Shown here: positions 5,002 through 43,528 of the stretch, one piece after another
Layout of the letters: each line of letters begins with the position of its first letter
Position numbering within the stretch: position 1 is the first letter of the stretch
NCBI RefSeq assembly: GCF_040499845.1
Contig: NZ_CP159342.1
Location: 4,712,001 to 4,776,000, forward strand
Direction: 5' to 3'
DNA: 64,000 nt
Source of the DNA: Micromonospora sp. CCTCC AA 2012012
GTDB lineage: Bacteria > Actinomycetota > Actinomycetes > Mycobacteriales > Micromonosporaceae
The notes under the pieces: model-generated
Seen by the model: only the letters and a program-made list of their open reading frames with translations
What the model was told of the DNA's origin: nothing
The model's database searches: none
Translations under genes and position numbers: made by a program

Positions 5002-5115
5002 CTGATCTTTAGCAAGCGATCACAGCAAGGCCCCGCTGCGACCGGCATACGCAGGCAGAAAACGAAAAGCCGCAGGTCATCAGCCTGCGGCCACAAGCGG
5101 AGCCTCGGGTTAGGA
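5002..5115 (-). repeat. Conserved tRNA-linked element, copy 1
   Basis: Copy 1 of an element also found at 39422 and 43383. On the plus strand it begins CTGATCTT, three variable bases, CAAGCGA, then CAGC. Near its right end is a perfect 8-bp inverted repeat, GCCGCAGG (5069-5076) and CCTGCGGC (5084-5091), with a 7-base loop. It ends GGGTTAGGA. The IS110 element begins at its right edge, so what originally followed now lies beyond 6496. All three copies have the same orientation. It could be an integrase attachment arm or a small RNA; neither is shown. Confidence 0.6.
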
Positions 5116-6489
5116 GTCTCCATGTGACTCCGGTTGATCTTGGCGGGCAGGGTGCAGCGGCCGGCGCGAGGGGGTTGCGTCGGCCGGGAGCGGTCTGGTT
5201 CAGGCTGCGGCGTGGATCGCTGGTGCCGGTCGGATAAAGGTCTTGCGGTCACGGACAAGCGCCCAGAGGACGTCGACGCGCCGTCGGGCGAGGGCGAGTA
5301 TCGCTTGACGGTGGTTCTTTCCTTCCGCACGTTTCCTCTCGTAGTAGGCACGGGAGGTGGGGCATTCGCGGGCAGCGGTGAATGCGGCCATCCACATGAT
5401 GTGCCGCAGTCGCCGGTGGAAGCGGCGGGGCTGCCGATGGTTGCCGGAAACTGTGCCGGAATCACGGGAGACGGGTGCCAGGCCAGCGTGGGCGGCGAGT
5501 TTGGCGGGGCTGTCGTATTCGGTCATGCCGGCGGTGTGCACGAGCAGTTCGGCGGTGAGCAGGTTTCCCATGCCCGGCAGACTTCCGATGATCGGCGCGA
5601 GGGGGTGCTGGTCGAGTTGGTCGGCGATGAGGTCGTCGACGGCGGCGATGCGTTGTTCGATGGCGAGGATCTCGGTGGCCATCTGCCCGACGACCACGGC
5701 GGCGGCGCGTTGGCCGGGCAGGGTGACGGTCTGCTGCCGGGCGGCGGCGACCATCGCCTCGGCGACCTGGGCGGCGTTCTTGACGTGCCCACGCCGGAGC
5801 AGGGCGGTGATCCGGTCGACCCCGGCGTGCCGGATCGCGGCCGGGGTCTGCCAGCACGCGAGGATCATCATCGGGGCCTTCATGTTCAGGTCCACGGCCC
5901 GCTCCAGGGCAGGGCTGATCCCGGTGAGCAGCTCCTGCAACCGGAACAGGGTCGCGACACGCTGGCCGACGAGGTCGGCACGGTAGCCGGTCAGCACTGT
6001 CAGCTCGGCGAGGAGCCGGTCGGAGGGTTCCAGGATCGGGATGTCGGGGCGCATGCGGATGGTCTGGGCGATGACGACCGCGTCGCGGGCGTCGGTCTTG
6101 TTCTCGCCGGCGAACGCGGCGGCCATGTGGAACGCGACGGTGCCGGAGACGTAGCGGACCTGGACCTGGCGCCGCCACAGCAGGGTCAGCAGCAGCGCCG
6201 ACAGGCCAGTGGTGACGTCGACCGCCCAGCAGACCACACGGCCATGCGTCGACACCTCCGCCATGACCGTCAGCAGGGCGGTCTCGTCGTTGGCTACCCG
6301 GCGGGAGTAGACGAGCCGGCCGTCGCCGTCGACGGCGGCCACGTGGTGGTGGGTCTTGCCGATGTCCACGCCGATCCACAGCTTCGCCATCGTCGTGCTC
6401 TCCTTCATCGGTCGGTTTGCTCCGAACGTGCCTCGTCTGTGGGTTCGGGTTTGCCGGCACCTTCTACGGATGCGAACGCAGGTCGCGGG
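5116..6489 (-). mobile_element. IS110-family insertion sequence (element 1)
   Basis: A DEDD transposase gene is flanked by an 8-bp direct repeat GTCTCCAT, at 5116-5123 and 6489-6496. I take this as the recombination core shared by both junctions, giving an element of about 1.37 kb, normal for the family. The 3' end (transposase orientation) contains a 6-bp inverted repeat, GGAGTC/GACTCC (5113-5118 and 5126-5131). About 98 bp lie between the transposase start and the outer end, where IS110-type elements encode their guide (bridge) RNA; this is shorter than the RNAs described for IS621. Element 2 at 17140-18459 has related ends. The exact boundaries are inferred. Confidence 0.7.
5200..6390 (-). 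CDS. IS110-family transposase (DEDD N-domain plus Transposase_20)
   Basis: A 396-residue recombinase, read from the ATG at 6390 that has GGAG 9-12 nt upstream; an in-frame ATG at 6408 lacks one. The N-terminal DEDD RuvC-like domain starts LWIGVDIGKTHHHV (first Asp in VDIG) and continues with the ENKTDARDAVVIAQT acidic motif. The C-terminal Transposase_20 domain has [35 protein letters not shown] and the RAYYERKRAEGK Ser/Tyr segment typical of IS110. The frame is intact and all expected motifs are present, so it may be active. It resembles the enzyme at 17144-18364 closely in arrangement but is not identical. IS110 enzymes insert at sites chosen by an element-encoded bridge RNA. Confidence 0.93.
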   Translation of the reverse strand: MAKLWIGVDIGKTHHHVAAVDGDGRLVYSRRVANDETALLTVMAEVSTHGRVVCWAVDVTTGLSALLLTLLWRRQVQVRYVSGTVAFHMAAAFAGENKTDARDAVVIAQTIRMRPDIPILEPSDRLLAELTVLTGYRADLVGQRVATLFRLQELLTGISPALERAVDLNMKAPMMILACWQTPAAIRHAGVDRITALLRRGHVKNAAQVAEAMVAAARQQTVTLPGQRAAAVVVGQMATEILAIEQRIAAVDDLIADQLDQHPLAPIIGSLPGMGNLLTAELLVHTAGMTEYDSPAKLAAHAGLAPVSRDSGTVSGNHRQPRRFHRRLRHIMWMAAFTAARECPTSRAYYERKRAEGKNHRQAILALARRRVDVLWALVRDRKTFIRPAPAIHAAA

Positions 6490-6530
6490 TCTCCATCAGC
6501 GGTCTACCGAATCTCGCAGGCGACGAAGCG
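6490..6530 (-). pseudogene. tRNA-like D-arm fragment beside IS110 element 1 (tentative)
   Basis: The minus strand at 6502-6517 reads GCGAGATTCGGTAGAC, which resembles the D-arm of a tRNA-Leu. Removing the IS110 element joins this sequence to copy 1 of the conserved element, giving the same order (tRNA 5' part, then element) seen at 39.5 and 43.5 kb. The anticodon arm cannot be folded into a normal stem and loop, so this is at best a degraded tRNA 5' half. Confidence 0.3.
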
Positions 6531-6966
6531 GCGGGTGGCATCTCCTACCGTGAGCCAAGCGATCTCGACGAAACACACGCAGCCATACCCACCGCTCCCG
6601 GGCATCGGGGTCTACGGCCACCAGGGCCGCGCCCGTTCAACCAATGTGCCCGCGGGGCAGGAGCGGGCGGCACCTCGAAGTTCAGCCACGATTACGGCGG
6701 AACACACACAGCCATCCCCACTCCCGGCCCCGCGGGCACGGCGACCCCAGCTTCCCGCCGTCGCCAGCCGGCACCTCGGACCCGATGTGCGAGGACCGCC
6801 GGAATCACGCTTTGCTGCCTCTGGAAGATCGTCGCGCTCGACCCGGCGAGGGTGTTGCGGTCAGCAGGAACGAGGTGTTGGCTCGGCCACGCCGTCGCCC
6901 GCGGCACTGATGACGTGTCACGTCGGCCGCCGGTTGTCGGTAGATCAATGACGGCTGTGTGGTCGT
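6531..6966. other. Intergenic with a diverged direct repeat
   Basis: No gene is recognised. Two related segments lie about 130 bp apart: 6570-6601 (containing AACACACGCAGCCATACCCA) and about 6700-6728 (containing AACACACACAGCCATCCCCA). Both end in CTCCCGG. Their role is unknown; they may be relics of an inserted repeat. The 3' end of the TauE-like gene follows at 6967. Confidence 0.35.
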
Positions 6967-7698
6967 TCAGAAGCCGAGCAGGAACAGCACGCCGGCGGCG
7001 ACGAGGCCGATCTCGACCAGGATGACGAAGACTCGGTCGGTGACGCGTCCGACGACCTTCTTGCCGGCCCACGCGCCGAGCAGGGTCGCCGGGGTCAATG
7101 CGACGCCGTAGAGCAGTACGGTGCGGGTGAGCAGACTTCCGGCGCCGTACGCGGCGATCTTGGAGGTGTGCATGATCAGGGCGCTGGCGGCTTCCGTGCC
7201 GATGTATGCGGCGCGGGTCAGTCCGTAGGCGAGGAAGAACGGCGCGGTCAGCGGCCCGACGGATCCGAGGAGTGCCGATCCCAGCCCGGATGCCGCCCCC
7301 ACCGCGGCGAAGGTGCGGTCGGCGGGGCGCCGGGGGTAAGGGTTGAGTCGACGCCACAGGACCACGGCGATGAGGAAGACGCCGAGGATCCGCTTGAGTG
7401 GTTCCAGTGGGGCGTGGGCGAGCAGGAGACCTCCGACGACGGCGCATGGGGCCGCACCGAGTGTGAACCAGCCGACGAGCGGCCAGTTCAGGTCCCGCCG
7501 GTTGAACCACACCCGGGCGCCGTTGCTGGACAACTGAGTGAGGGTCAGCATCGGCACCGCCATCCGGAGCCCGAACAGGGCGGTGAACACGGGCAGTAGC
7601 AGGACCCCGCCGCCGAATCCGGCCACGGCGGAGAGCCAGGCCAGCGCGAATGCCGCCGCTGACGCCGCCGCGAGCGTGCCGAGTGTGTCGGCGTTCAT
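6967..7698 (-). CDS. TauE/SafE-family membrane transporter
   Basis: This 243-residue protein is almost entirely hydrophobic, with about 7-8 predicted membrane segments. The start has the Gly-rich SAVAGFGGGVLLLPVFTALFG motif typical of the TauE/SafE (sulfite/organosulfur exporter) family. The second half repeats it as ASGLGSALLGSVGPLTAPFFLAYG, the expected internal duplication. It ends in a hydrophobic helix, LVEIGLVAAGVLFLLGF. The substrate cannot be told from sequence; family members export small sulfur-containing anions. It stands alone, divergent from the ECF sigma operon at 8135. Length and topology are normal. Confidence 0.88.
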   Translation of the reverse strand: MNADTLGTLAAASAAAFALAWLSAVAGFGGGVLLLPVFTALFGLRMAVPMLTLTQLSSNGARVWFNRRDLNWPLVGWFTLGAAPCAVVGGLLLAHAPLEPLKRILGVFLIAVVLWRRLNPYPRRPADRTFAAVGAASGLGSALLGSVGPLTAPFFLAYGLTRAAYIGTEAASALIMHTSKIAAYGAGSLLTRTVLLYGVALTPATLLGAWAGKKVVGRVTDRVFVILVEIGLVAAGVLFLLGF

Positions 7699-8134
7699 CC
7701 GGGACCGGCGGGGGTGGGGGTTGCGCTGGTGCCGGGACGGCGGACCGGTCGGGACACCGCGGAGCCCACTACGGGCGCTCCCTTCGTCTTGGGCTGGTGC
7801 ACGTGCCCGATGGGGCGGGGGTGGTGGGCTGAAAAAGTACGGCGTGACGTTACGCCTCGTGGCATCGGGCGCATGGCACCGCCGTGGGACGGCTACCGCA
7901 GGCGAGGATCTCCGCGGCGATCATCAGGTTCACCGCCGTCGTTGAACCATGCCGCCATGCCCATGTGCTGCCGCGGGCAGGCTGCCACGTTGATCCACAG
8001 CGGGCGTGGTCGCGTACTGATCAGAAGACCGCCGGCACAGTCGCCTACGGTACGCTTCCCCGCAGTCACTACTACGCAGCGTCGTGCTGCTGTTCGGCTC
8101 GGCCGAGCGGGCAGAGCGCGACCGGAGGTACTCG
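7699..8134. other. Intergenic region between divergent genes
   Basis: A 436-bp stretch separates the starts of the TauE-like gene (minus) and the sigma-factor gene (plus), so it must contain both promoters. I could not identify a convincing sigma-70 or ECF promoter pair. GGAGG at 8124-8128 is the ribosome site of the sigma gene. No RNA gene or repeat was seen. Confidence 0.4.
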
Positions 8135-8695
8135 ATGGCGGACGACGCGGAGATCACCGCTTGGGCGCTGGCGGCCGGGCGGGGTGATCGGGCTGCTGCC
8201 GCTCGGTTCGTGGCCGCCACCCAGGATCAGGTGCGCCGGTTCCTGGCCGCGTTGATCTCCCCAGGTGAGGCGGAGGACCTGGCGCAGGAGACATTCTTGC
8301 GGGCGGTGCGGTCGTTGCCGTCGTTCGCGGGGCGGTCCTCGGCGCGGACGTGGCTGTTGTCGATCGCCCGCCGGGTGGCGGTGGATCATGTCCGCACGGC
8401 GATGTCCCGGCCGCGTACGGTGCCGATGGCGGATGGGTACGACGTGGCGGACCCGGCGCGGGCCGGCTTCGACCGGCAGGTCGTGGTGGAGCGGCTGATC
8501 GCGGCGTTGCCGGCGGAGCGGCGGGAGGCGTTCGTCGCCACGCAGGTGCTGGGCCTGTCGTACGTCGAGGCCGCCGAGGTGTGTGGTTGCCCGGTGGGCA
8601 CCATCCGGTCGCGGGTGGCGCGGGCCCGCGAGGATCTCGTCGCGGCGATGGGTGACCCGCGGGGTGCGAGCACACGCGGTACGACAGCCGGCTGA
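8135..8695 (+). CDS. ECF-type RNA polymerase sigma factor
   Basis: A 186-residue sigma factor, started at the ATG at 8135 because GGAGG precedes it by 6 nt. Region 2 is seen as DQVRRFLAALISPGEAEDLAQETFLRAVRSLPSF followed by ARTWLLSIARRVAVDHVR. Region 4 is a helix-turn-helix, LGLSYVEAAEVCGCPVGTIRSRVARAREDL (about residues 130-160). There is no region 3, as normal for ECF factors. The anti-sigma candidate at 8768 follows by 72 bp. The nearby copper and sulfur-type genes suggest, but do not show, a role in metal or redox stress. The zf-HC2 partner contains a HxxxCxxC motif, so a redox- or zinc-sensitive switch is plausible. Confidence 0.92.
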   Translation: MADDAEITAWALAAGRGDRAAAARFVAATQDQVRRFLAALISPGEAEDLAQETFLRAVRSLPSFAGRSSARTWLLSIARRVAVDHVRTAMSRPRTVPMADGYDVADPARAGFDRQVVVERLIAALPAERREAFVATQVLGLSYVEAAEVCGCPVGTIRSRVARAREDLVAAMGDPRGASTRGTTAG

Positions 8696-8767
8696 GCTGA
8701 TCGCTTGACCTGCGCCGATACCTGAACTCGTGGGAACTGGCGCCGCCTGCGGGCCGACTACCGGTGT

Positions 8768-9520
8768 ATGGGGTGTGAGCAGTGGCGTGAGGTGCTGTCG
8801 GCGCACCTGGACGGGCAGGAGTCGCCCGACGAGCGCGCTGGGGCCGAGGAGCACCTGGCCGGCTGTGACGGCTGCCGGGTGTGGCTGGACCAGGCAGCGG
8901 CGGTGACGCGGCGGGCGAGGATGTCGGTGCACGTCGCCGGTCCCGACCTCACTGACCTGGTCCTCGGCGCGCTACCCGCGCCCCCCGCGCGTCGCTGGCG
9001 GGAGCGGGTAGCGAGCTCGCTGCGGGTGGCGCTCGGGCTGATCGGCGCGGTTCAGGTGGTGTTGGGTCTGGTCCAGGTGGGTCGGAGTGCCGCCGGCCCG
9101 CACGTGCACGCGGCGGGTCCGCTGGCGTCGGGGCATCTGTGGCACGAGGCGGCGGCGTGGAACGTGGCCGTCGGCGCGGGGTTTTTGTTCGTGGCGGCCC
9201 GCCGGACGCCGCCTACGGGGCTGGTGCCGATGTTGAGCGCGTTCGTCGCCACGCTGGTGCTGCTGTCGGTCAACGACCTGGCGACCGGGCGGGTCGACAC
9301 CTCCCGGCTGGTCAGCCACGCCTTCCTCCTCGCCGGGTACGCGATCGTGGTCGCGATGTCCCGGCCGGGCCTGCGCCCCGGCGGCCCCTCCTCGCGGGTA
9401 CGGCCGGACGTGCCCCGCTGGCGGATCCCCGCCGAGGACGAGGCACCTACCCCGGGCCTGCGACTGCTACCATCACCGCACCCCGGCACCGCACGGCACC
9501 GGGGGCGCACCGCGGCCTGA
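8768..9520 (+). CDS. zf-HC2 anti-sigma factor with membrane domain
   Basis: This 250-residue protein begins MGCEQWREVLSAHLDGQ and has the zinc-binding HLAGCDGC motif (HxxxCxxC) at about residues 30-37, the hallmark of ZAS anti-sigma factors. A cytoplasmic linker leads into a membrane part of about four to five hydrophobic segments (residues about 85-200). The C-terminal tail (about 205-250) is Pro/Arg-rich. It lies just downstream of the ECF sigma gene on the same strand, the usual anti-sigma position. Binding to the sigma at 8135 is inferred from position and domain. Confidence 0.85.
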   Translation: MGCEQWREVLSAHLDGQESPDERAGAEEHLAGCDGCRVWLDQAAAVTRRARMSVHVAGPDLTDLVLGALPAPPARRWRERVASSLRVALGLIGAVQVVLGLVQVGRSAAGPHVHAAGPLASGHLWHEAAAWNVAVGAGFLFVAARRTPPTGLVPMLSAFVATLVLLSVNDLATGRVDTSRLVSHAFLLAGYAIVVAMSRPGLRPGGPSSRVRPDVPRWRIPAEDEAPTPGLRLLPSPHPGTARHRGRTAA

Positions 9521-9718
9521 CCACCGCGTGAACCTGTTCGCGTTCGAAGGGGCTGCGCGACGTGCAGGAGCTGTCGAACCTCGTCGAGCGGCGGGGATCG
9601 GCTTACCAGGCCGGCGTCGGCGGCAGCCTCACCGTCGGCGAAGGCTCCTGACCCCCGGCGACGCCGAAGCGGGGTCCCCCGCACCGCGGAGAGGCGCGCA
9701 CCTCCGCCGCGGACGGTG

Positions 9719-9758
9719 TCGCCTCGGCGAGGACCTCGGGGGATCCTCGCCGAGGCGA
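9719..9758. terminator. Strong hairpin between convergent genes
   Basis: A perfect 14-bp inverted repeat: TCGCCTCGGCGAGG at 9719-9732 and its complement at 9745-9758, with a 12-base loop. It sits between the convergent ends of the anti-sigma gene (9520) and the YcnI gene (9800), where a bidirectional terminator would be expected. There is no T-run, as is usual in high-GC actinomycetes. Confidence 0.7.
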
Positions 9759-9799
9759 AACCCGAACCGCGAACCGATGGAGGTGTGGATGGCGTCCGG

Positions 9800-10507
9800 T
9801 CAGTTCGAGTGGTTCGCGCGGCGGTAGGCGAGGAGTCCGGCGACCAGGCCGGCGAGGCCGAGGAGGATGCCGGCGATGCCGTAGGCGGTGCCGTTGCTGC
9901 CGTCGGGGCCGGTGTCCTCGCTGGTCTGGGCTGCCGCGGCGACGGGCTGGGCGGACGCCTTGTCGTCCTTGCCGGCGGTGAGCGTGAGCACGGGGGCGGG
10001 GTGCTCGGGCTCTTGACCGGCGGCGGGCTCGTCGATCCAGCGCACGATGTCGCCGTTGGAGTAGGTCTGCAGGGCCTTGAAGACGACCTGGCCGGTCTTC
10101 GGCAGCGGGCCGAGGGAGACGTCGAATTCCTGGAACTGGTGCGGCTTGATCGCCGCGCCGGGCCCTGCGGTCCAGGTGATCTTTGTGACGGCTTCGGTGA
10201 TCTCCCCGTCGTCGGTCTTGATCGGCGTGGCCAGCTTGGTGGTCTCGGTGGCCGCCGTCCAGCCGGTGAGGGGTTTGAGGGACACCGACGCGATCGGCGT
10301 CGCCGTCGGTAGGTTGACCTCGACCTTGGTGGTGTCGGCGGTGTCGGTTTCGTTCGGCACCCGGAACGACACCTTCGTCCACCCGCCTTGCACGGCGGTG
10401 GACGGGTTGACGGTCACGTGGGCCGCGGCCGGGCCGGCCAGCCCGAGGGTGAGCGCGGCGGCGCCCGCGGCGATGGTCGCCGCCCGGGCGAGCACAGTCC
10501 GGTTCAT
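9800..10507 (-). CDS. YcnI-family (DUF1775) copper-associated protein
   Basis: A 235-residue exported protein started at the ATG at 10507; the frame opens further upstream without support. Residues 1-30 are a signal peptide ending AAAHV, so the mature chain would begin with His, as in YcnI proteins where the N-terminal His helps bind copper. The DUF1775 domain (about 30-170) begins VTVNPSTAVQGGWTKVSFRVPNE. A Gly/Ser/Asp-rich linker leads to a C-terminal membrane anchor, GIAGILLGLAGLVAGLLAY, with an Arg after it. The neighbouring PepSY membrane protein and CopC-like fusion give a coherent extracytoplasmic copper-handling group. It is divergent from the PepSY gene. Confidence 0.9.
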   Translation of the reverse strand: MNRTVLARAATIAAGAAALTLGLAGPAAAHVTVNPSTAVQGGWTKVSFRVPNETDTADTTKVEVNLPTATPIASVSLKPLTGWTAATETTKLATPIKTDDGEITEAVTKITWTAGPGAAIKPHQFQEFDVSLGPLPKTGQVVFKALQTYSNGDIVRWIDEPAAGQEPEHPAPVLTLTAGKDDKASAQPVAAAAQTSEDTGPDGSNGTAYGIAGILLGLAGLVAGLLAYRRANHSN

Positions 10508-10596
10508 GATCAGCGCATCCTTTGCGTCCGGTTCTGCGGGCCGGTCCTCCGGCACCGGGAAGGTGGTCGGCGGCGAGACAGGAAAAGTTCCCCGAC

Positions 10597-10612
10597 TCCA
10601 CCGAAGGGTGGA
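10597..10612. other. Perfect small hairpin in a divergent promoter region
   Basis: TCCACC-GAAG-GGTGGA (10597-10612) is a perfect 6-bp stem with a GAAG tetraloop. It is centred between the divergent YcnI and PepSY genes, flanked by AAGTTCC to the left and ACCTTCC to the right. It could be an operator half-site pair or an RNA leader structure; no known copper-repressor consensus was matched. Confidence 0.35.
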
Positions 10613-10707
10613 ACCTTCCGCCGCGGTCGGCGGGTGCGGGAACCAGGGCGCGTTGCGCGCCGACTAGGACAGCCGACGCCCTTGCCCGCGCGAGATCGGA
10701 TGGACGC

Positions 10708-12138
10708 ATGACGGTTCCCGCTGACACCCCACCACCCCAGGCCCGACCTTCAGGATGGGGTGGGCTGCTGCTGCGGCTGCACTTCTACGCCGGGATCCTG
10801 GTGGCGCCGTTCCTGCTGGTCGCCGCCCTGACCGGGCTGGCTTACACGGTCACCCCACAGCTGGACCGAGCCCTCTACGGCGACCAGCTCACCGTCGACC
10901 GCGTGGGTGACCAGGCGCGGCCCCTGGCCGAGCAGATCGGCGCGGCGCGGGCCGCGCACCCGGATGGCACGGTGGCCAGCGTCGCCCCGGGCGAGGGGGA
11001 CGCCACGACCCGGGTGGTGTTCGACGTGCCGACGCTCGGCGAGAAGCAGCACACCGTCTACGTCGACCCGTACACCGCGCGGGTCGAGGGCACCCTCACC
11101 ACCTGGTTCGGGTCGACGCCGGCCACCACCTGGCTGGACGACCTGCACCGCAACCTGCACCTCGGCGTCGTCGGGCGCTACTACTCGGAGCTGGCCGCGA
11201 GCTGGCTGTGGGTCCTCGTCCTCGGCGGGCTCATCCTTTGGTGGCGGCGCCACCGCACCAGCGCCAACCGGACGCGGCGGCTGGTCGCCCCGGACCTGGC
11301 CGCGAAGCGGGGTGTGCGGCGCACCCGCGGCTGGCACGCCGCGACCGGGGTGTGGCTCGCCGTCGGACTGCTGTTCCTGTCCGCGACCGGGCTGACCTGG
11401 TCCCGCTACGCCGGGGGGAACTTCAGCTCCGCCCTCGACGCGCTCGACGCGCACGCTCCCGAGCTGTCGACCACGCTGCCCGGGGCGGTCACCCCGGTCG
11501 CCGACACCGGCCACCACGGCGGCGGCGGAGAGGGTGGCGGCGCGACGCCGGTCGACCCGGCCGACACCGACCGGGTCCTCGCGCTGGCCCGCGGCGCCGG
11601 TCTCGACGGGCCGGTGGAGATCACCGCACCGGCCGAGGCGGGCACCGCGTGGAGTGTTGTGCAGGTCGACAACTACTGGCCGGTGCGCAAGGACGCCGTC
11701 GCCGTCGACCCGGCCACCGGTGCCATCACCGCCCGCAACGACTTCGAGTCGTGGCCGATGTTGGCGCAGGTCAGCGGCCTCGGCATCCAGGCGCACATGG
11801 GGCTGCTGTTCGGCCCGGTCAACCAGATCCTGCTCGCCGCCTTGGCCCTCGGCCTGCTCTGCGTCACCGTGTGGGGGTACCGGATGTGGTGGCAGCGCCG
11901 CCCCACCCGCCACGACCGTCGTGCCCCGCTCGGCGCCCCACCGGACCGAGGGGCGTGGCAACGGCTGCCCGCCTGGGGCATCGCGGTCGGCGTACCCCTG
12001 GTCTTCGCGATCGGGTGGGCGTTGCCGCTGCTGGGGGTGAGCCTGCTGGCCTTCCTCGTGGTCGACCTGCTACTCGGCGCTCGTCGACGACGGGACACGG
12101 CGGCTGCCCAGGCGACCGGCGGTGCCGCTACCAGGTGA
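10708..12138 (+). CDS. PepSY-domain membrane protein
   Basis: A 476-residue protein from the ATG at 10708. Residues about 18-45 form the first membrane helix (LHFYAGILVAPFLLVAALTG), a PepSY-TM hallmark with conserved His in LRLHFYAG. The extracytoplasmic part includes the WLDDLHRNLHLG segment, followed by a second helix (SWLWVLVLGGLILWW). A third helix follows a RGWHAATGVWLAVG motif. A Gly/His-rich loop (GHHGGGGEGGG) lies around residue 270. Two or three more helices end the protein. PepSY-TM proteins are linked to iron or copper uptake and reductase functions. The placement beside YcnI and CopC-like genes suggests copper. Confidence 0.85.
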   Translation: MTVPADTPPPQARPSGWGGLLLRLHFYAGILVAPFLLVAALTGLAYTVTPQLDRALYGDQLTVDRVGDQARPLAEQIGAARAAHPDGTVASVAPGEGDATTRVVFDVPTLGEKQHTVYVDPYTARVEGTLTTWFGSTPATTWLDDLHRNLHLGVVGRYYSELAASWLWVLVLGGLILWWRRHRTSANRTRRLVAPDLAAKRGVRRTRGWHAATGVWLAVGLLFLSATGLTWSRYAGGNFSSALDALDAHAPELSTTLPGAVTPVADTGHHGGGGEGGGATPVDPADTDRVLALARGAGLDGPVEITAPAEAGTAWSVVQVDNYWPVRKDAVAVDPATGAITARNDFESWPMLAQVSGLGIQAHMGLLFGPVNQILLAALALGLLCVTVWGYRMWWQRRPTRHDRRAPLGAPPDRGAWQRLPAWGIAVGVPLVFAIGWALPLLGVSLLAFLVVDLLLGARRRRDTAAAQATGGAATR

Positions 12139-12267
12139 CCGGTTCGGCTGTCGGGGGCCGTACGGGGGCGGCGCGCAACGCGCACGCCGCACCCGCGCGA
12201 CCGCCGTACGGGTGCGATGACGTCACCGCAGCCCCCTCGCTTCGTACACGCAGGTGCGCGTGCGGGT

Positions 12268-15854: not shown

Positions 15855-15912
15855 GTCGATCTTCTTCCGCGAGAATGCTCGATACGGGGGACGCTAGCCC
15901 GCCACAATCTCT

Positions 15913-16258: not shown

Positions 16259-16263
16259 GCCGG

Positions 16264-26808: not shown

Positions 26809-26812
26809 CGCC

Positions 26813-35890: not shown

Positions 35891-35900
35891 GCAAGGTTAG

Positions 35901-35927: not shown

Positions 35928-36009
35928 TCCACCGCGCCACACGCCGGGCTGATCCGCAAGTTACGACCAACCCAGGCCCGAGCCGGTCCGAAGGTTCGCG
36001 CACCTCTGA

Positions 36010-37427: not shown

Positions 37428-37437
37428 ACCCTCCTAT

Positions 37438-37460
37438 GACCGTTGCGCCCGTCAGGTTCC
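37438..37460 (-). promoter_or_regulatory. Candidate ECF promoter of the third sigma gene
   Basis: GGAACC on the minus strand (37455-37460) is followed after 14 bases by GTC (37438-37440) within CGGTCATA. The arrangement is close to the ECF -35/-10 form, though the spacing is slightly short. It precedes the sigma start at 37427 by about 10 nt. Confidence 0.35.
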
Positions 37461-37554
37461 ACTTCCGGTAGCACTACATCTGAACCAGCCCAATGCAGCA
37501 TGCTCGCCACAGCCGGCTCAAGTTCATGACACCGACAACATTGGGTGCCGCGAG

Positions 37555-37574
37555 AGGCCAAGCATGCTTGGCCT
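37555..37574. promoter_or_regulatory. 20-bp perfect palindrome, likely operator of the HTH/nucleotidyltransferase module
   Basis: AGGCCAAGCATGCTTGGCCT is a perfect 20-bp palindrome. It sits 19 bp upstream of the ATG at 37594, directly before a TAGACT -10 box (37582-37587), so the mRNA would be almost leaderless. It is a typical place for autorepression by the downstream HTH protein, as in toxin-antitoxin operons. Confidence 0.7.
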
Positions 37575-37593
37575 AGCGTAGTAGACTGGCGGC

Positions 37594-38160
37594 ATGGGCC
37601 GGTTCTCCGAGGATGAGCTACAGGCGGTTGTCTCCAGGTACGAGGCGACGCGGGCGCAGGCGTTGACCGAGCGGGACGAGCAGCTGCGGGCGTTTCACGC
37701 GGCCGGGTGGCGGCCGGTGGATCTGCAGCGGGTTACCGGGTACAGCCGGGAGACGATCCGTCAGGCGCTCCGACCGGAAGTCCGGCGGGCGACCAACATC
37801 AGCCGGCGCAGGACCTCGCCCCAGCCGCCTGCGGACTACCGGCCCTACGGAGACCGGAAGCCCTACGTGGTGGCCGAAACCCTGGCCGCACTGCACGGAC
37901 CGACCGAAGGCACGGTGACGCTTCCGCGTCACCTCGACTGGTCCGGGCACGCCGAGTACGACCTGAACCGGCCCGCACGCCTGGCCAGCATGTACAAGGT
38001 GGTACTCACCGAAGCCAGCACCGTCGAGGATCTCAACACCTGGCTCGACGCCGACCTCCTCCGACGGCTCTGGCCCACCCTCTGGCTGCCACCCCAACTC
38101 CGCCAACGCTGGGAGCAAGCCTTCCCCGAACTCGCCGCCACCCGCAGCACCGCGGCATAG
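37594..38160 (+). CDS. HTH-containing protein, probable antitoxin/regulator of an AbiEii-like module
   Basis: A 188-residue protein. Residues 1-35 form a helix, and residues 36-62 (WRPVDLQRVTGYSRETIRQALRPEV) are a clear helix-turn-helix. The C-terminal half (YVVAETLAALHGPTEGTVTLPRHLDWSGHAEYDL onward) is not recognised. The end, PELAATRSTAA, is copied at the end of the next gene by a tandem duplication. A palindromic operator precedes it. The nucleotidyltransferase-type gene follows after 2 bp. By analogy with AbiE and MenAT systems it would be the antitoxin and autorepressor; this is inference. Confidence 0.72.
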   Translation: MGRFSEDELQAVVSRYEATRAQALTERDEQLRAFHAAGWRPVDLQRVTGYSRETIRQALRPEVRRATNISRRRTSPQPPADYRPYGDRKPYVVAETLAALHGPTEGTVTLPRHLDWSGHAEYDLNRPARLASMYKVVLTEASTVEDLNTWLDADLLRRLWPTLWLPPQLRQRWEQAFPELAATRSTAA

Positions 38161-38675
38161 CGGTGGACCCCTTCCACGAACGACTCGCCCGCACCGGGCT
38201 CAGGGCCGCCGATAGATACGGCTTCGCGCTGGCCGGCGGCTACGCGGTCCAGGCCGCCGGACTCCTGGAGCGCCCCAGCGAGGACGTCGACCTGTTCACC
38301 GCCTGGGACCGCCGCGACGAATTCACCGCCGCAGTCGCCGCCGTCGTGCACGCCTACCGGGACGACGGCCTGACCGTCGAGACCGAGCGGCAGTACGACA
38401 CCTTCGCCCGCCTGGCCGTCACCGATGGCGCGCGGGTTTCCAAGGTCGAACTCGGCGTGGACTGGCGTGCCAACGAACCGATCCTCATGGCGATCGGACC
38501 GGTACTTCACCCCGACGACGCGGTCGCGAACAAGATGAGCGCCCTCTACGGGCGGGCGTTCGCCCGGGACTTCATCGACATCGACGCCACCCTCCGATCC
38601 GGCCGCTACACCCGCGACGCCCTCCTCACCCTCGCGCAGCGCGCCGACCGCGGCTTCGACCCGCGCATCTTCGCC
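38122..38675 (+). repeat. Tandem duplication, first unit (554 bp)
   Basis: The 554-bp unit 38122-38675 is followed directly by a diverged copy, 38676-39229. Shared landmarks at exactly 554-bp offset are TTCCCCGAACTCGCC (38122 and 38676), the gene starts (38163 and 38717) and GCATCTTCGCC at the ends. The duplication contains the last 13 codons of the HTH gene and the nucleotidyltransferase gene without its 3' end. Confidence 0.85.
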
Positions 38676-38714
38676 TTCCCCGAACTCGCCGCCACCCGCA
38701 GCACTGCGGCATAA
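38163..38714 (+). CDS. AbiEii-like nucleotidyltransferase, copy 1 (C-terminus replaced)
   Basis: A 183-residue protein starting at GTG, 2 nt after the HTH gene. It has the nucleotidyltransferase core: GG at residues 25-26 (FALAGGYAVQAAG), the metal-binding D41 and D43 (SEDVDLFT) and KMSALYGRAFARDFIDIDA, which fits the conserved K..R.FRDFxD region. The last 13 residues, AFPELAATRSTAA or nearly so, come from the duplicated end of the HTH gene, and about 40 residues of the normal C-terminus are missing. The catalytic core is intact, but stability or activity may be lost. Copy 2 follows at 38717. Confidence 0.8.
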   Translation: MDPFHERLARTGLRAADRYGFALAGGYAVQAAGLLERPSEDVDLFTAWDRRDEFTAAVAAVVHAYRDDGLTVETERQYDTFARLAVTDGARVSKVELGVDWRANEPILMAIGPVLHPDDAVANKMSALYGRAFARDFIDIDATLRSGRYTRDALLTLAQRADRGFDPRIFAFPELAATRSTAA

Positions 38715-39229
38715 CGATGGACCCCTTCCACGAACGCCTCGCCCGCACCGGGCTGGCGGCGGCCGACCGATACGGCTTCGCTCTGGCCGGCGGTTACGCG
38801 GTCCAGGCCGCCGGGCTTCTGGAGCGGCCGAGCGAGGACGTCGACCTGTTCACCGCCTGGGACCGCCGCGACGAATTCACCGCCGCAGTCACCGCCGTCG
38901 TGCACGCCTACCGAGACGACGGCCTCACCGTCGAGACCGAGCGGCAGTACGACACCTTCGCCCGGCTCGCAGTCACCGACGGCGCGCGGGTTGCCAAGGT
39001 CGAACTCGGCGTGGACTGGCGCGCCAACGACCCAATCCTCATGGCGATCGGACCGGTACTCCACCCCGACGACGCGGTCGCGAACAAGATGAGCGCCCTC
39101 TACGGACGGGCGTTCGCCCGGGACTTCATCGACATCGACGCCACCCTCCGATCCAGCCGCTACACCCGCCACACCCTTCTCGCCCTCGCGCAGCGCGCCG
39201 ACCGCGGCTTCGACCCGCGCATCTTCGCC
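38676..39229 (+). repeat. Tandem duplication, second unit (554 bp)
   Basis: Second unit of the duplication described at 38122. It differs from the first at many scattered third positions, and the second gene starts with ATG rather than GTG, so the event is not recent. Past 39229 the sequence continues into the complete C-terminus of the nucleotidyltransferase. Confidence 0.85.
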
Positions 39230-39364
39230 GACGCCCTCGGACAAGCCGCCCAACTCGACTCCGACGATTTCGCCCAATACGGCGTCACCGGCCCAGCGCT
39301 GGACAATCTCCGCAGCCGATTCGCGGAGTGGCGCCACGAACTACTCGACGACCAGAAAGGGTGA
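38717..39364 (+). CDS. AbiEii-like nucleotidyltransferase, copy 2 (full length)
   Basis: A 215-residue protein with the same core as copy 1: GG25-26, D41 and D43, then KVELGVDWRAND and KMSALYGRAFARDFIDIDATL. The C-terminal 40 residues (ADALGQAAQLDSDDFAQYGVTG...) are present only here, so this is the ancestral form of the gene. AbiEii/MenT-type enzymes transfer nucleotides to RNA, in known cases tRNA ends, as toxins. The family here is recognised from the motif set, not by search. It ends about 55 bp before copy 2 of the tRNA-linked element. Confidence 0.82.
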   Translation: MDPFHERLARTGLAAADRYGFALAGGYAVQAAGLLERPSEDVDLFTAWDRRDEFTAAVTAVVHAYRDDGLTVETERQYDTFARLAVTDGARVAKVELGVDWRANDPILMAIGPVLHPDDAVANKMSALYGRAFARDFIDIDATLRSSRYTRHTLLALAQRADRGFDPRIFADALGQAAQLDSDDFAQYGVTGPALDNLRSRFAEWRHELLDDQKG

Positions 39365-39421
39365 CTCGGCCCCGACTCGCGGCACCGTTGAGCTGCACAC
39401 GCAACGCCCGAAACGTTCCAG

Positions 39422-39525
39422 CTGATCTTCGGCAAGCGATCGCAGCGAGCCCGCGAAGCGACCGGCACGAAACGGGGGACGGCAGGAAAGCGGCAGGTCA
39501 TCGGCCTGTGGAGGCCAGCGGACCG
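39422..39525 (-). repeat. Conserved tRNA-linked element, copy 2
   Basis: Starts CTGATCTT, CGG, CAAGCGA, then CAGC like copy 1. The inverted repeat is CAGG/CCTG around TCATCGG (39494-39508), shorter than in copy 1. It runs directly into a tRNA-Arg 5' half on the minus strand. In the plus-strand reading frame the first codons give LIFGKRSQR, versus LIFSKRSQQ in copy 1 and LIFTKRAQQ in copy 3, with mostly silent differences. The element may therefore descend from a gene's 3' end. Confidence 0.65.
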
Positions 39526-39568
39526 TCGGGTTAGGAAACCGATGCTCTATCCCCTGAGCTACGAGGGC
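39526..39568 (-). pseudogene. 5' half of tRNA-Arg(CCU), copy A
   Basis: The minus strand reads GCCCTCG (acceptor), TA, GCTC-AGGGGATA-GAGC (perfect D-arm), A, then TCGGT-TTCCTAA-CCCGA. The last is the anticodon arm with loop TTCCTAA and anticodon CCU; the innermost pair is mismatched. Variable loop, T-arm and acceptor 3' strand are missing. Instead, the conserved element follows. It is therefore a truncated tRNA gene, broken just after the anticodon stem. Confidence 0.75.
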
Positions 39569-39640
39569 GCGAGGGCCTAGTCTAGCGACCTAGGGGTTCA
39601 TCTGGGGTGGCAGGGAGTGGCCCACGTTCGCCCACGTCAC
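39569..39640 (-). promoter_or_regulatory. Retained promoter of the truncated tRNA, copy A
   Basis: TAGACT (minus strand, 39579-39584) lies 10 nt before the tRNA start, a good -10 box. The region up to about 39640 is nearly the same as the sequence in front of the second tRNA half at 43529-43600, showing that the promoter was duplicated with the gene. The half-tRNA and the element behind it may be transcribed. Confidence 0.5.
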
Positions 39641-39970
39641 CCGGACCGCCGTTCTCCCAACCCAGGACCACACCCGGAGCACACGAACCCCGATTTGCGA
39701 CCGGCGGTCGGCCGCGGTGACCCGCGTTGGCACCGGTTGACCCGGATTGGCATCCGCTGGAGAGCACACGTCGAGCACATCACGCAAGATCATGACGTGA
39801 CCGCCCGTTAGGCCAGTCGCCGCGACTTTCGCAGGAAGACGTGCAGTCCAGCGACTGAGCCAAGCTGGTCAAAGATCAGCGCAACGAACGGCAGCGCTGC
39901 CGGGGCCAACCCGCCGCCCGCGCAACCTGACCCCGACACAGAAAGTTCGAGGTCACAGCACGAGGGGTGG
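39641..39970. other. Intergenic between the tRNA repeat and the GlxA-type regulator
   Basis: This 330-bp stretch has no gene, strong hairpin or further copy of the element. It should contain the end of the transcript of the minus-strand regulator gene at 39971. Stretches at 39713-39745 (CGCGTTGGCACCGGTTGACC) look like neither coding nor RNA. Confidence 0.3.
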
Positions 39971-41011
39971 TCAGCTCACCCGACCGACACGCCTGGCCGT
40001 CGATCCACTCGCCGGCGCGCCTGTTCGAGACGCGGAGGTCCCGTCGGTACGGAATGCTCGACGGTATGCCGCTGGGGACGTACGCATGGCCCGGCTGAAG
40101 TGGTGACGGTAGGTGATCGGGGAGTCGAAGCCCACCGCTCTGCCGATCTGTTCGATCGACGCATCCATGGTCTCCAGCAGGGCGAGGCTGGCCTGCACCC
40201 GTTGGTTGATCAGCCAGCGGATCGGGCTGGTGCCGGTGGCGCGGGCGAAGTGCCGCAGGTAGGTGCGCGGAGACATCCGGGCGCAGTCGGCGAGAGTCTC
40301 GACGGTGATGGGTTGATCGAGGCGTGCCAACGCCCAGTCCAAACTGCGTGCCACCGCGTCATCGTCGGCGATGGTGTTCATTGGCGCCTCGATGAACTGG
40401 GCCTGGCCGCCGTCGCGATGCGGTTGGGTCACCAGCCGACGGGCGACGGCGTTGGCGATCGTCGCGCCGTGATCCTGCCGGATGACGTGCAGACACAGGT
40501 CGAGTCCGGCCGCGCTGCCTGCGCTGGTGAGGACGTCCCCGAGGTCGATGTACAGGACGTCGGGGTCGACTTCGACAGCAGGGAAACGGCGGCGCAGCAG
40601 GTCGGCGTAGCGCCAATGGGTGGTGGCACGGCGACCGTCCAGCAGTCCCGCAGCCGCCAGGGCGAACGCTCCTGAACAGATCGACATGACGCGGGCACCG
40701 CGCTGGTGCGCCAGCTGGAGCGCGGCGGCGACGTCGGGTGAGAGGCCGGCGGTGACGTCCGACACTCCGGGCACGATCACCGTGGAGGCTCGGGCGAAGG
40801 CGTCCAGGCCGTGCGGTGTGTGCAGGCTGGCCCCGCCGATCACGGGTACCGGGCCGGGCTGCTCGGCGCAGAGGGTGACGTCGTACCAGGCGCGGTCGAA
40901 CTCGGGGCGGGGCAGCCCGAACACCTCGGTCACGATGCCGGTTTCGAAGACCGACATGCCGGGATAGGCCAGCACGGACACCGTGTGCCGAGCGGGGCGT
41001 GCGGTCGCCAT
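39971..41011 (-). CDS. GlxA-type transcriptional regulator (DJ-1/PfpI domain plus AraC HTH)
   Basis: A 346-residue protein. Residues about 10-180 form a DJ-1/PfpI-like domain with VSVLAYPGMSVFETGIVTEVFGL and the nucleophile-elbow SICSGAFALAAAGLL. Residues about 220-320 form an AraC-type double HTH: ITVETLADCARMSPRTYLRHFARATGTSPIRWL and IEQIGRAVGFDSPITYRHHFSRAMRTSPAAYRR. This layout defines the GlxA family, usually transcriptional activators. It is divergent from the rhodanese-MFS-GNAT genes across 71 bp and probably controls them. The group lies between two tRNA half-gene repeats. Confidence 0.93.
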   Translation of the reverse strand: MATARPARHTVSVLAYPGMSVFETGIVTEVFGLPRPEFDRAWYDVTLCAEQPGPVPVIGGASLHTPHGLDAFARASTVIVPGVSDVTAGLSPDVAAALQLAHQRGARVMSICSGAFALAAAGLLDGRRATTHWRYADLLRRRFPAVEVDPDVLYIDLGDVLTSAGSAAGLDLCLHVIRQDHGATIANAVARRLVTQPHRDGGQAQFIEAPMNTIADDDAVARSLDWALARLDQPITVETLADCARMSPRTYLRHFARATGTSPIRWLINQRVQASLALLETMDASIEQIGRAVGFDSPITYRHHFSRAMRTSPAAYRRAFRTDGTSASRTGAPASGSTARRVGRVS

Positions 41012-41082
41012 GGCGAGATCTTAGCGGACAATGGCATTCCTGCCACTGTCCGCCGGTGCCGGCGGCGAGCATGCTCTCTGGC

Positions 41083-41541
41083 ATGTCAAGGTCCTTCTCC
41101 GTCCCGCCGGCGTCGCCGGCAGCGGCCGCTGCCCACTTTGCCGCACGACTGTCCTTCGAGACCGACGTCAGCGACGTCCACGCCGACCTGACGGCCGGCG
41201 TGGACGTGCTGGCGGTCGATTCCCGCAACGAAGCGGCCTGGCAGCAGGGGCACCTTCCGGGTGCCACCCATCTACCGACAGCCGAGATCGCGGCGCGGGC
41301 GGAGGAACTCATCCCGCCCGGCACCCCGGTGGTGACCTACTGCTGGGGACCCGGCTGCAACGGTGCCACCCGGGCGGCATTGGAGTTCGCCCGGCTCGGC
41401 TACCCGGTCAAGGAGATGATCGGCGGCTACGAGTACTGGGTCCGTGAGGGCCTCCCGGTGCAGACCGCCGGAGCCGGGCTCATCCGACGTCCGGCCGACG
41501 ACCTGACCGCCCCCGCGACCAACCTCTCGTGCGGCTGCTGA
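41083..41541 (+). CDS. Rhodanese-domain protein
   Basis: A 152-residue protein from the ATG at 41083; an ATG four codons earlier is possible. Rhodanese folds are seen in DVLAVDSRNEAAWQQGHLPGATHLP and the active-site loop YCWGPGCNGATRAALEFARLGYPV, where Cys in TYCWGPGC is the catalytic position. A Cys pair ends the chain (SCGC). Rhodaneses move sulfane sulfur. This type, next to a GlxA regulator, is common in actinomycetes. The MFS gene starts 1 nt after its stop, so they are co-transcribed. Confidence 0.9.
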   Translation: MSRSFSVPPASPAAAAAHFAARLSFETDVSDVHADLTAGVDVLAVDSRNEAAWQQGHLPGATHLPTAEIAARAEELIPPGTPVVTYCWGPGCNGATRAALEFARLGYPVKEMIGGYEYWVREGLPVQTAGAGLIRRPADDLTAPATNLSCGC

Positions 41542-41542
41542 G

Positions 41543-42841
41543 ATGACCACCGGCCAGATCACCGACCGGCCCGCCGAGCCGGACAGTCGACGAGGCTGGC
41601 GGGACTTCCGCCTGCTGTGGGGCGGGCAGAGCATCAGCCTGATGGGCGACCAGGTCTTCCTCCTCGCCCTGCCTCTCGCCGCGGTTGAGGAACTGCACGC
41701 CAGCACCTTCCAGGTCGCCGGGCTCGGCGCGGTTGCGAAACTGCCGTTCCTGCTGATCGGTCTGCCCGCCGGGGTCTGGGTGGCGCGACTGGGTATGCGT
41801 CGCGCCATGCTCAGCGCAGACCTGACGCGCGCGCTGGCAGTCCTCTCCCTACCGGTCGCCGTTTCGCTCGGCGTGCTGACCCTGCCGCACCTGCTGCTCG
41901 TCGCCATGGTCACCGGCGTCGCCATGGTCTTCTTCCAGGTGGCGTACCAGTCCTACACGCCGACGTTGATCTCCGACGACCAACAACTGCACGCCGCCAA
42001 CACCCGACTGTCCTTCTCCGAGTCCACCGCGCTCCTGATCGGTCCGGGACTGGCTGGCGCCATCATCAGCCTCCTCGGCGCGGCACGGGCTCTGCTCGCC
42101 GACGCCGTCAGCTACCTGCTCAGCGTGGTGACCCTCGTCGCGATCCGACATCGGGAACCGGCACCAACCATTCGGGCGACCCAGCCCTCGTTGTGGCACG
42201 AGGTTCGCGAAGGGTTGCGGTTTGTCACTAACCACTCCCTTCTCCGACCGATCATGATGTGTGGCGCGCTCTACAACCTCGGCGTCGCGATGTATGACTC
42301 GCTGCTCGCGGTGTTCGCGGTCCGGCAGCTGGGCATGGACCCCTGGCTGCTCGGCGTCGCCCTCGCACTCGGCGGCGTGGGCTTTCCGATAGGGAGCATG
42401 GGCGCCCGATGGCTCGCCAACCGATTCGGCATCGGGCCGTCTCTGCTCATCGCCGGAGTGCCCTCGGTCCTGGGCCTGGCCATCGGCGCAGCCGCCCACG
42501 GTCGCCTGTCCGTCGCGCTACTTGCCGCCGGAACCCTGGTCAACGGCATCGGCCAAGGCACCTTCGCCGTCAACGCCCTCACCATCCGCCACCTCGTCAC
42601 CCCGCCGGAACTGGCCACCCGGGCCACCGCGGTTCACCGCTTCGTGACCTGGGGAGCGCTGCCTATCGGGTCGGTCATCGCCGGCGGCGTCGGCACCGTG
42701 TTCGGTCTCCGCGCCGCGATGCTCACCGCCGCAGGCGCAGCCGCGCTCTGCATGATTCCTCTGCTCGACCGCTCTCTGCTCCAAGCCCGGCGATTGGCCC
42801 GGGTATCGTCGCCGATCCCTACCATGAATCAGCCGATATGA
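41543..42841 (+). CDS. MFS transporter
   Basis: A 432-residue protein with about 12 membrane helices. The N-terminus (GWRDFRLLWGGQSISLMGDQVFLLALPLAAVEELHAS) and the loop PAGVWVARLGMRRAMLSADLTRALA are typical of the MFS_3/Tetracycline-like drug exporters of actinobacteria. The second half has GMDPWLLGVALALGGVGFPIGSMGARWLANRFG, another A-motif-like loop. The stop overlaps the start of the GNAT gene (ATGA). The substrate is unknown. Expression is probably governed by the divergent GlxA-type regulator. Confidence 0.9.
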   Translation: MTTGQITDRPAEPDSRRGWRDFRLLWGGQSISLMGDQVFLLALPLAAVEELHASTFQVAGLGAVAKLPFLLIGLPAGVWVARLGMRRAMLSADLTRALAVLSLPVAVSLGVLTLPHLLLVAMVTGVAMVFFQVAYQSYTPTLISDDQQLHAANTRLSFSESTALLIGPGLAGAIISLLGAARALLADAVSYLLSVVTLVAIRHREPAPTIRATQPSLWHEVREGLRFVTNHSLLRPIMMCGALYNLGVAMYDSLLAVFAVRQLGMDPWLLGVALALGGVGFPIGSMGARWLANRFGIGPSLLIAGVPSVLGLAIGAAAHGRLSVALLAAGTLVNGIGQGTFAVNALTIRHLVTPPELATRATAVHRFVTWGALPIGSVIAGGVGTVFGLRAAMLTAAGAAALCMIPLLDRSLLQARRLARVSSPIPTMNQPI

Positions 42842-43299
42842 TCATCCGACCGGCGGTCCTTGGCGATCTCGTCGAAGTGGCCCGACTGTGCGCCGCGCAC
42901 GCCGCCTACGAACAGGCGCCTCCCGTGCCGGGCAACCTGACTGAACTGTTGGCCGAGGCGATCGCCGCACCTCACCCACGGCTCTGGTGCCTGGTCGCGA
43001 CGCAACAGGACACCGTGATCGCATACCTCACGATGACCCTGGAATTCTCCACCTGGTGCGGACGGGAGTACGCCCACCTGGACTGCCTCTATGTCGACGA
43101 GGACCATCGAGGCCTCGGCGTGGGCCGGTCGCTGATGGGCGCCGCCGTCACACAGGCGCGTGACCTTGGGGTCAGCGAGATCCAGTGGCAGACACCAGCA
43201 TGGAATGCAGACGCGATTCGCTTGTACGACAGGCTGGGCGCCACCTCATCAGCTAAGCGTCGCTATCTGCTGCAGACGGACCCACCGCTGACAGCCTGA
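42838..43299 (+). CDS. GNAT-family N-acetyltransferase
   Basis: A 153-residue enzyme whose ATG overlaps the MFS stop. The acetyl-CoA-binding motif A is LDCLYVDEDHRGLGVGRSLMGAA (residues about 79-101), with the RxxGxG pattern as HRGLGVG. Motif B is seen as WQTPAWNADAIRLYDRLGA. The substrate is probably a small molecule with an amino group. Being co-transcribed with an exporter, it could help in drug or metabolite resistance; that is inference. It closes the segment between the tRNA half-gene repeats. Confidence 0.9.
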   Translation: MIIRPAVLGDLVEVARLCAAHAAYEQAPPVPGNLTELLAEAIAAPHPRLWCLVATQQDTVIAYLTMTLEFSTWCGREYAHLDCLYVDEDHRGLGVGRSLMGAAVTQARDLGVSEIQWQTPAWNADAIRLYDRLGATSSAKRRYLLQTDPPLTA

Positions 43300-43382
43300 C
43301 GTTGCTGCGAAGGTGGACCGTCGATGGCCGCAAGACGCACAGCGGCTCGAATCAGGATCACCCAGCGCCCACACCCTGCCTG

Positions 43383-43485
43383 CTGATCTTCACCAAGCGA
43401 GCACAGCAACAGGCCGATGCGTCCAGTACACGAGACACGAGATAGGAAGGCCGCAGGTCAACTGCCTGCAGAAACAGGCAGAGCA
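43383..43485 (-). repeat. Conserved tRNA-linked element, copy 3
   Basis: Begins CTGATCTT, CAC, CAAGCGA, then CAGC. The inverted repeat is GCAGG/CCTGC around TCAACTG (43454-43470). It is followed by a tRNA-Arg 5' half on the minus strand. Overall similarity to copy 2 is lower in the middle (43415-43445) than at either end. Confidence 0.6.
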
Positions 43486-43528
43486 GCGAGTTGGGAAACC
43501 GATTCCCTATCCCCTGAGCTACGAGGGC
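43486..43528 (-). pseudogene. 5' half of tRNA-Arg, copy B
   Basis: The minus strand reads GCCCTCG-TA-GCTC-AGGGGATA-GGGA, then ATCGGT-TTCCCAA. It equals copy A over the acceptor and D-arm but has changes in the D-stem (GAGC to GGGA) and in the anticodon (CCU to CCC). It is more decayed than copy A. The 3' half is absent. It lies exactly 3960 bp from copy A in the same orientation. Confidence 0.7.

Follow-up and report, generated by a model that had tools for sequence, protein, structure and literature searches.

A genus-wide family of probable integration junctions with 5' tRNA halves, three of them stacked upstream of one tRNA-Arg(CCT) gene in Micromonospora

Islander lists 3919 islands in tRNA and tmRNA genes, 3760 with a 3' fragment and 159 with a 5' fragment, together with four tandems of three or more, and it rejects islands that lack an integrase (PMC4383910). 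Integration in the 5' half is found with archaeal pTN3-type elements and is described, citing Williams 2002, as "seldomly encountered in bacteria" (PMC8371274). Actinomycete integrative and conjugative elements (AICEs) integrate at the tRNA 3' end and form tandem pairs (PMC3218068). Here, we analyzed a 64,000-nucleotide stretch of Micromonospora sp. CCTCC AA 2012012 (NZ_CP159342.1, positions 4712001-4776000 of a 6.73-Mb single-contig genome; "the window", its genome labelled G000), in which an arm of ~115 bp occurs three times, twice joined to the 5' half of a tRNA-Arg(CCT) gene. These three belong to a real, genus-wide family of tRNA integration junctions with 5' polarity. An initial annotation of the window knew of no described element with this layout. 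That was too strong, since the passages used here from two of these sources do describe islands that displace a 5' tRNA fragment, though as rare ones (PMC4383910, PMC8371274). A literature search judged on titles and the openings of abstracts, with full text drawn on for the three papers cited above, found none describing this element. The family is known in kind; what is new is its integrase-poor, defence-rich and stackable form.

The motif CTGATCTT-NNN-CAAGCGA ... CAGC was present at window positions 5002, 39422 and 43383 in a single orientation, just as initially annotated, and the matches were far above chance. The GCAGG/CCTGC inverted repeat further on, which had been given as common to all three, was perfect in copies 1 and 3 and imperfect in copy 2 (CCTGT). 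A 201-base query from copy 2, comprising the tRNA half and the arm, matched copy 3 in its own genome with E 1.3e-28 and copy 1, over the arm part only, with E 5.8e-14; a profile of the three window arms picked up relatives in other genomes. In minus-strand reading, copies 2 and 3 each consist of nucleotides 1-38 of tRNA-Arg(CCT), broken after the anticodon (CCTAA) and joined to a ~115-bp arm that ends in GAAGATCAG. The claim that two copies run into truncated tRNA-Arg genes was therefore correct (39531-39568 and 43491-43528), while the wider claim that each copy is linked to a tRNA 5' part failed for copy 1, an arm without a tRNA half that has the end of an IS110 element at the anticodon position instead. 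ARAGORN found no complete tRNA in the window. The features of the three copies are as follows.

5001..5115, minus strand: copy 1 (c1), the left arm of e3, which is the large innermost element, with an IS110 end in place of the tRNA half (profile match R 58886-59000 and alignment)
5116..6797 (limits approximate), minus strand: IS110-family element, its right end meeting the c1 arm where the anticodon would be (transposase open reading frame 5200-6408 with Pfam DEDD_Tnp_IS110 and Transposase_20; DNA alignment to other copies ~5114-6797)
39421..39538, minus strand: copy 2 (c2), forming the left arm of e2 (profile match R 24463-24580)
39531..39568, minus strand: c2 tRNA-Arg(CCT) 5' half, nt 1-38, with 38 nt identical to the intact gene (sequence comparison)
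39569..39760 (outer limit approximate), minus strand: right end of element e1 (right arm and tRNA promoter), common to other inner halves and the intact tRNA (78 upstream flanks aligned; BLAST match at the locus of the intact tRNA)
43382..43498, minus strand: copy 3 (c3), left arm of e1 (profile match R 20503-20619)
43491..43528, minus strand: c3 tRNA-Arg(CCT) 5' half, the outermost copy, with three changes compared to the intact gene (sequence comparison)

The tRNA half and its upstream flank also matched a fourth place in the own genome at 97%. This was an intact tRNA-Arg(CCT) gene at G000:C1:4612402-4612476 on the minus strand (ARAGORN), 99.5 kb below the window, downstream of c1-c3 and in the same orientation. 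Read along the minus strand, the order was c3 half and arm, e1, c2 half and arm, e2, c1 arm, e3 and the intact tRNA, with marker-to-marker intervals of 3.8, 34.3 and 104.5 kb. We consider it likely that site-specific recombination has placed a tandem series of elements at one tRNA-Arg(CCT) gene, most of them integrase-less and moved in trans, and that the copies mark the left attachment junctions of these elements. A tyrosine recombinase would exchange strands in the anticodon loop. Each element would have the left arm, with two direct repeats, at one end and the right arm, tRNA promoter and 5' half at the other. Integration would leave the old 5' half joined to the left arm on one side and, on the other, would rebuild a working tRNA from the promoter and 5' half of the element and the chromosomal 3' half. 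Because the tRNA would be rebuilt each time, the target would be renewed and elements could stack. The enzyme could come from either of two integrase clades: int517, on an element with the same ends, or int460, of ordinary 3'-side islands at the same tRNA.

Next, the distribution of the arm was determined. By DNA comparison with 150 relatives and the own genome, and with a covariance model (R1, built from 40 copies) run on 160 same-genus genomes, arms were found in 94 of the 160 at E <= 1e-4. In a 300-genome sample of the family, 76 genomes matched at E <= 1e-3, and 10 of these belonged to 7 other genera. The exact half-arm junction pattern was seen in 30 stretches in named genomes, all Micromonosporaceae (Micromonospora, Verrucosispora, Salinispora and "Micromonosporaceae bacterium"). 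The detailed set comprised 61 sources (20 plus 40 stretches plus 172 kb of the own genome), nearly all picked for holding arms, and 27 arms beyond the initial set were located by profile. In total, 84 arms were present in 58 of the 61 sources, 53 of them with a tRNA half directly upstream. All 27 arm-tRNA pairs were on the same strand with the arm upstream, as seen in 20 sources with both an arm and an intact tRNA-Arg(CCT), chosen for holding arms. An intact tRNA gene with a same-orientation 5' fragment upstream, a trait of 5'-fragment tRNA islands, is what these loci contain. The initial annotation had offered, as one reading, scars from site-specific integration events that break a tRNA in its anticodon arm; the genus-wide junction and its fixed polarity to the intact tRNA-Arg(CCT) support and extend the idea of integration, and the copies look less like scars than like standing boundaries of stacked elements. 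In one stretch (L086, from G024), a distance of 3.3 kb separated two intact tRNA-Arg(CCT) genes (7743-7818 and 11012-11087), as though an element had brought a complete tRNA gene with it; this pair may be intermediate between the 3' and 5' polarities.

A different explanation needs no site-specific recombinase today: the arms and their cargo would have been dispersed and reshuffled by IS110 insertion and by homologous recombination, with IS110 copies and tRNA halves as the matching sequences. In the 61 sources (window 5116-6797 and L082-L155), the same exact terminal motif marked an IS110 right end at 18 places, namely six at the arm junction by the anticodon, nine in the right arm and three elsewhere, and the other IS110 flank varied. 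However, the 53 of 84 arms with a clean half-arm junction have no IS110 there, and the 30 exact junctions in named genomes also argue against IS110 spread, as do the polarity and the conserved direct repeats, which are the prediction for an attP site. We regard spread by IS110 as unlikely. IS110 with the exact right-end motif may target attachment regions or serve as a recombination portal.

The two ends of the elements differ in their anatomy. At the left arm, CCTAA is followed by two variable bases and CGACGCTC, and the arm contains two 17-bp direct-repeat sites, with the consensus sequences GCAGGCCGATGACCTGC and GCTTGCCGAAGATCAGC, 72 bp apart. This pair ranked first of 3160 window pairs for identity within the arm (59%), and the hairpin is the first of the two sites. 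Such a pair would suit arm-type integrase sites. The right end, upstream of inner halves and intact genes, is a conserved stretch of ~150 bp that includes the tRNA promoter flank (78 flanks, with a few rows that differ entirely). The GCAGG-N7-CCTGC of the arm resembles a T-arm, which raises the question of a decayed tRNA 3' half in the arm; the mean local score beat 200 of 200 shuffles of the tRNA half, and 1397 of 4000 arm shuffles reached the observed score. At L143 11007-12696 (G176) and L148 5937-6453 (G195), neighboring arms were separated by 30-300 bp that held hardly any cargo.

Two RNA-based explanations were also considered. As its alternative, the initial annotation had suggested chimeric small RNA genes on tRNA promoters, in which the hairpin would be a terminator or a functional fold. 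The displaced halves do retain the tRNA promoter flank, 36 of 54 are sequence-perfect, and T-rich sequence follows the hairpin in many arms, but a terminator that does no more than silence the displaced promoter would account for these facts as well. The three changes in the outermost c3 half are also against this alternative. Furthermore, an Rfam gathering search of the window gave no match, the consensus fold was weak (RNAalifold -3.17 kcal/mol) and hairpin covariation was not above shuffles. A structured RNA was rejected on these last three results, and we hold chimeric small RNAs to be very improbable. Group I introns occur in the anticodon loop of bacterial tRNA-Arg(CCU), and an intron or its remnant at this position in tRNA-Arg(CCT) was the second explanation. 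The window had no match to an intron family or to any other Rfam family, and no 3' half, and hence no 3' exon, followed the arm before the cargo genes. These results contradict an intron, the chance of which we take to be negligible.

The content of the elements was examined with an integrase profile made from 15 integrases of the own genome, which other recombinase types would escape. Between each arm and the marker that follows it, 46 intervals were delimited; 44 measured less than 20 kb, including three of less than 300 bp. Only one of the 44 contained a tyrosine integrase, a truncated gene in L146, and the other 43 had none. The initial annotation was right that the window is without an integrase: none of the 15 Phage_integrase matches of the genome is at 4712001-4776000, and two are below the window near the intact tRNA. 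It had also proposed looking for a copy beside an intact integrase. The last element of the own genome, e3, does have a tyrosine integrase, but at a distance of 80 kb from the arm, which bears out that proposal only in part. An integrase of its own, an island trait, is present in e3 and, apart from the truncated gene in L146, absent from the small intervals. In six stretches from other genera, the own-genome-based profile detected no integrase. Because 43 of the 44 small intervals lack a tyrosine integrase, integration probably took place in trans, with the enzyme supplied by an integrase gene at the locus itself.

For the cargo, 173 proteins were predicted in the small intervals by a crude composition rule and 150 of the 173 were scanned. 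PADLOC detected PDC-S01 in 10 proteins, primase-polymerase models in 8 and reverse transcriptases in 2. Pfam gave IS110-type Transposase_20 in 12, AAA_14/DUF4143 in 10, AEP-TOTE in 8 and AbiEii in 8; these counts are from the 25 commonest of 78 families, through which conjugation genes in the small cassettes were also judged. AbiEii, the TOTE primase-helicase and PDC-S01 were recurrent, which would point to a defence role, and ordinary cargo was present as well (SnoaL-like, TetR, LysR, GNAT and MFS proteins). The elements in the window carried the following cargo.

39531..43490, minus strand: element e1, ~4 kb, no integrase (3784 bp from arm end to next half; AraC/DJ-1 regulator 39971-41011, minus; MFS 41543-42841, plus; GNAT within open reading frame 42409-43299, plus)
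5116..39530, minus strand: element e2, 34.3 kb between markers, no integrase detected (AbiEii pair; metal-handling CopC, PepSY_TM, NicO and FeoB; TauE, DUF347 and a histidine kinase)
38717..39364, plus strand: AbiEii-type nucleotidyltransferase, e2 cargo directly beside the c2 arm (Pfam AbiEii 3.3e-11; 93% identical to the arm-side protein in G175)
37594..38160, plus strand: gene for a 188-aa partner protein of AbiEii, without a Pfam match (96% identity with its G175 counterpart)

The whole of e1 was found in 2 of the 160 genomes, as the outermost element in G000 and directly beside the intact tRNA in G068. Part of e1 had relatives of 73-86% identity elsewhere in ~80 genomes and, therefore, its genes are common ones. 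The arm and adjoining AbiEii pair of e2 were 93-96% identical between G000 and G175, and the remainder of the two elements differed, the cassette in G175 being a TOTE-bearing one. Within e2, a 300-bp direct repeat (93% identical, window 38119-38418 and 38673-38972) has a second copy that covers the AbiEii gene start, and a second IS110-family transposase is located at window 17144-18364, with stretches of 18006-18366 being 77-82% identical to the first. Single cassettes with an RHS-repeat protein and a reverse transcriptase were seen at L093 6301-10632 and L100 10119-11771. The smaller single cassettes included those of L147 and L098, at 2.1-2.3 kb.

Two clades of integrase are present at the tRNA-Arg(CCT) locus and are candidates for the enzyme. 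int517 (G000:C1:4635170-4636720) is inside e3, with TraG- and TrwB-type ATPases, and the ends of e3 are the c1 arm, its half lost, and the intact tRNA. Relatives of int517 at E <= 1e-60 were found in 79 of the 160 genomes. Among the matches listed, from which coordinates were taken, 38 had at least 70% identity; for 31 of these, an arm or tRNA was listed on the same contig, and in 29 cases it was within 120 kb, a cut-off of our own choosing that one of the two distant matches (G170) missed by 102 bases. Among the listed relatives of at most 55% identity, only 2 of 35 were within 120 kb of an arm or tRNA (Fisher p 5e-14 for this contrast, uncorrected for relatedness). In 25 of the 29 cases, the int517-type gene was on the strand of the nearest marker. 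The right boundary of the int517 block was considered as an attachment site and rejected, as the block stops at a gene for an amino-acid permease, past which the sequences are not alike. A tRNA-Tyr(GTA) gene is located ~20 kb upstream of int517 in the G050 and G081 arrays, in a block shared with e3; ARAGORN found none in the own-genome region.

The other candidate, the integrase int460 (4609358-4610737), is encoded by a 3'-side island of the ordinary kind at tRNA-Arg(CCT). If the recombinase were of the int460 clade of such conventional islands, the cassettes would be their satellites and int517 mere cargo of e3. An intact tRNA-Arg(CCT) was within 1.5 kb of an int460-clade gene in 9 of 12 fetched loci, and the segment between the tRNA and int460 (P') opens with GAAGATCAGC, the site that ends the cassette arm. 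A cassette-sequence profile scored up to 12.2 bits on nine such segments, four of them above 7 bits, compared to at most 3.2 bits in 900 shuffles, and it also hit 8 of 44 tRNA 3' flanks at that position, with 5 of the hits exceeding the top score from 880 shuffles. However, this shared site is short, int460 islands end in 3' halves rather than cassette ends, and the int517 clade is locus-bound and on an element with cassette ends. We consider an int460 enzyme with satellite cassettes possible, if somewhat improbable. Since int517 rides on an element with cassette ends, it is put slightly ahead of int460 as the putative acting enzyme.

Several findings weigh against tandem site-specific integration, or against the part of int517 in it. 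First, 31 of the 84 arms have no half directly upstream. Decay of the displaced halves is visible but limited, with 36 of 54 matching the tRNA over 38 nt compared to 23 of 24 intact genes, and this counts against the proposed history. No empty site was found: an intact tRNA was within reach in none of 30 fetched GH6/CBM2 cellulase flanks, the cellulase gene being the neighbor of c3, and none of 20 tRNA-Arg(CCT) loci thought to be empty was so. The half-arm junction adjoined the cellulase in only 2 of the 30 flanks (G000 and G189). Shared cargo, as in G000 and G175, is explicable by homologous recombination or IS110 spread. As for int517, many arm-bearing genomes have no gene of its clade at E 1e-60, no arm was within 1.5 kb of 20 int517-type loci, e3 is a mosaic, and int517 itself, with no attachment site adjoining, is separated from the tRNA by 22.7 kb and from the c1 arm by 80 kb. 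Also, a 52% relative of int517 adjoins a tRNA-Lys, in an arrangement that would fit ordinary 3' polarity. The data show the anatomy of the junctions, their polarity, distribution and cargo; mobility, strand exchange in the anticodon loop, the enzyme and the defence role are inferred from them, and we still favor tandem integration in trans.

The comparison with known systems gives a mixed picture. Like cis-mobilizable elements and their accretion with integrative and conjugative elements, the small elements are integrase-less, have ends that match those of e3 and are in tandem with an element carrying int517 and ATPases of the type IV secretion system type. They differ in their 5' tRNA polarity, genus-wide cassette family and defence-type cargo, and a link to one parental integrative and conjugative element would be putative. 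In the way they would work, they are also like integron cassettes, being integrase-less, in one orientation and captured in an array at a fixed site, although the crossover would be in a tRNA anticodon loop, not attC, and each cassette has a tRNA promoter and half gene. An integron-like cassette system on a tRNA gene can be put forward tentatively: integrase-less cassettes with a tRNA promoter and 5' half would be captured serially at tRNA-Arg(CCT) in trans, the newest would rebuild the tRNA, and Micromonospora would accumulate exchangeable stacks of defence type. The genus is known for its natural products, and the arm provides a simple sequence tag with which to map exchangeable cargo, including AbiEii, TOTE and PDC-S01 genes. 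The system is also a clean test of how a tRNA gene stays working when every insertion supplies the promoter and first half.

Compared to what is reported in the passages used here, the elements are like 5'-fragment tRNA islands (the Islander class and pTN3) in having an intact tRNA with a same-orientation fragment, a crossover in the anticodon region and an element that supplies promoter and 5' half (PMC4383910, PMC8371274). Islander demands an integrase in each island (PMC4383910); most small elements here lack one, and the own genome holds a stack of up to three. They share a tyrosine integrase, a tRNA target and tandems with AICEs, but carry the 5' half in contrast to integration at the 3' end (PMC3218068). 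The rare 5' polarity is seen here at genus scale, in integrase-poor cargo units that escape tools demanding one integrase per island, such as Islander.

The outer end of the stack is at c3, next to the following gene.

43660..45615, minus strand: GH6/CBM2 cellulase, syntenic gene upstream of the array (Pfam; homologous flank in L192, L197, L203, L209 and L210)

c3 lacks the conserved right end and has cellulase terminator sequence in its place, and the cellulase flank is homologous in the five other loci up to the same point as c3. The missing right arm would suit a chromosomal boundary at c3, a reading that was weakened by the alignment of 78 flanks and by the 30 cellulase flanks. Since most other outer-looking halves keep the right arm and the cellulase seldom adjoins the junction, c3 may be either the original chromosomal boundary or a deletion. 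In the cellulase gene itself, the linker contains tandem 15-bp repeats at window 43927-44067.

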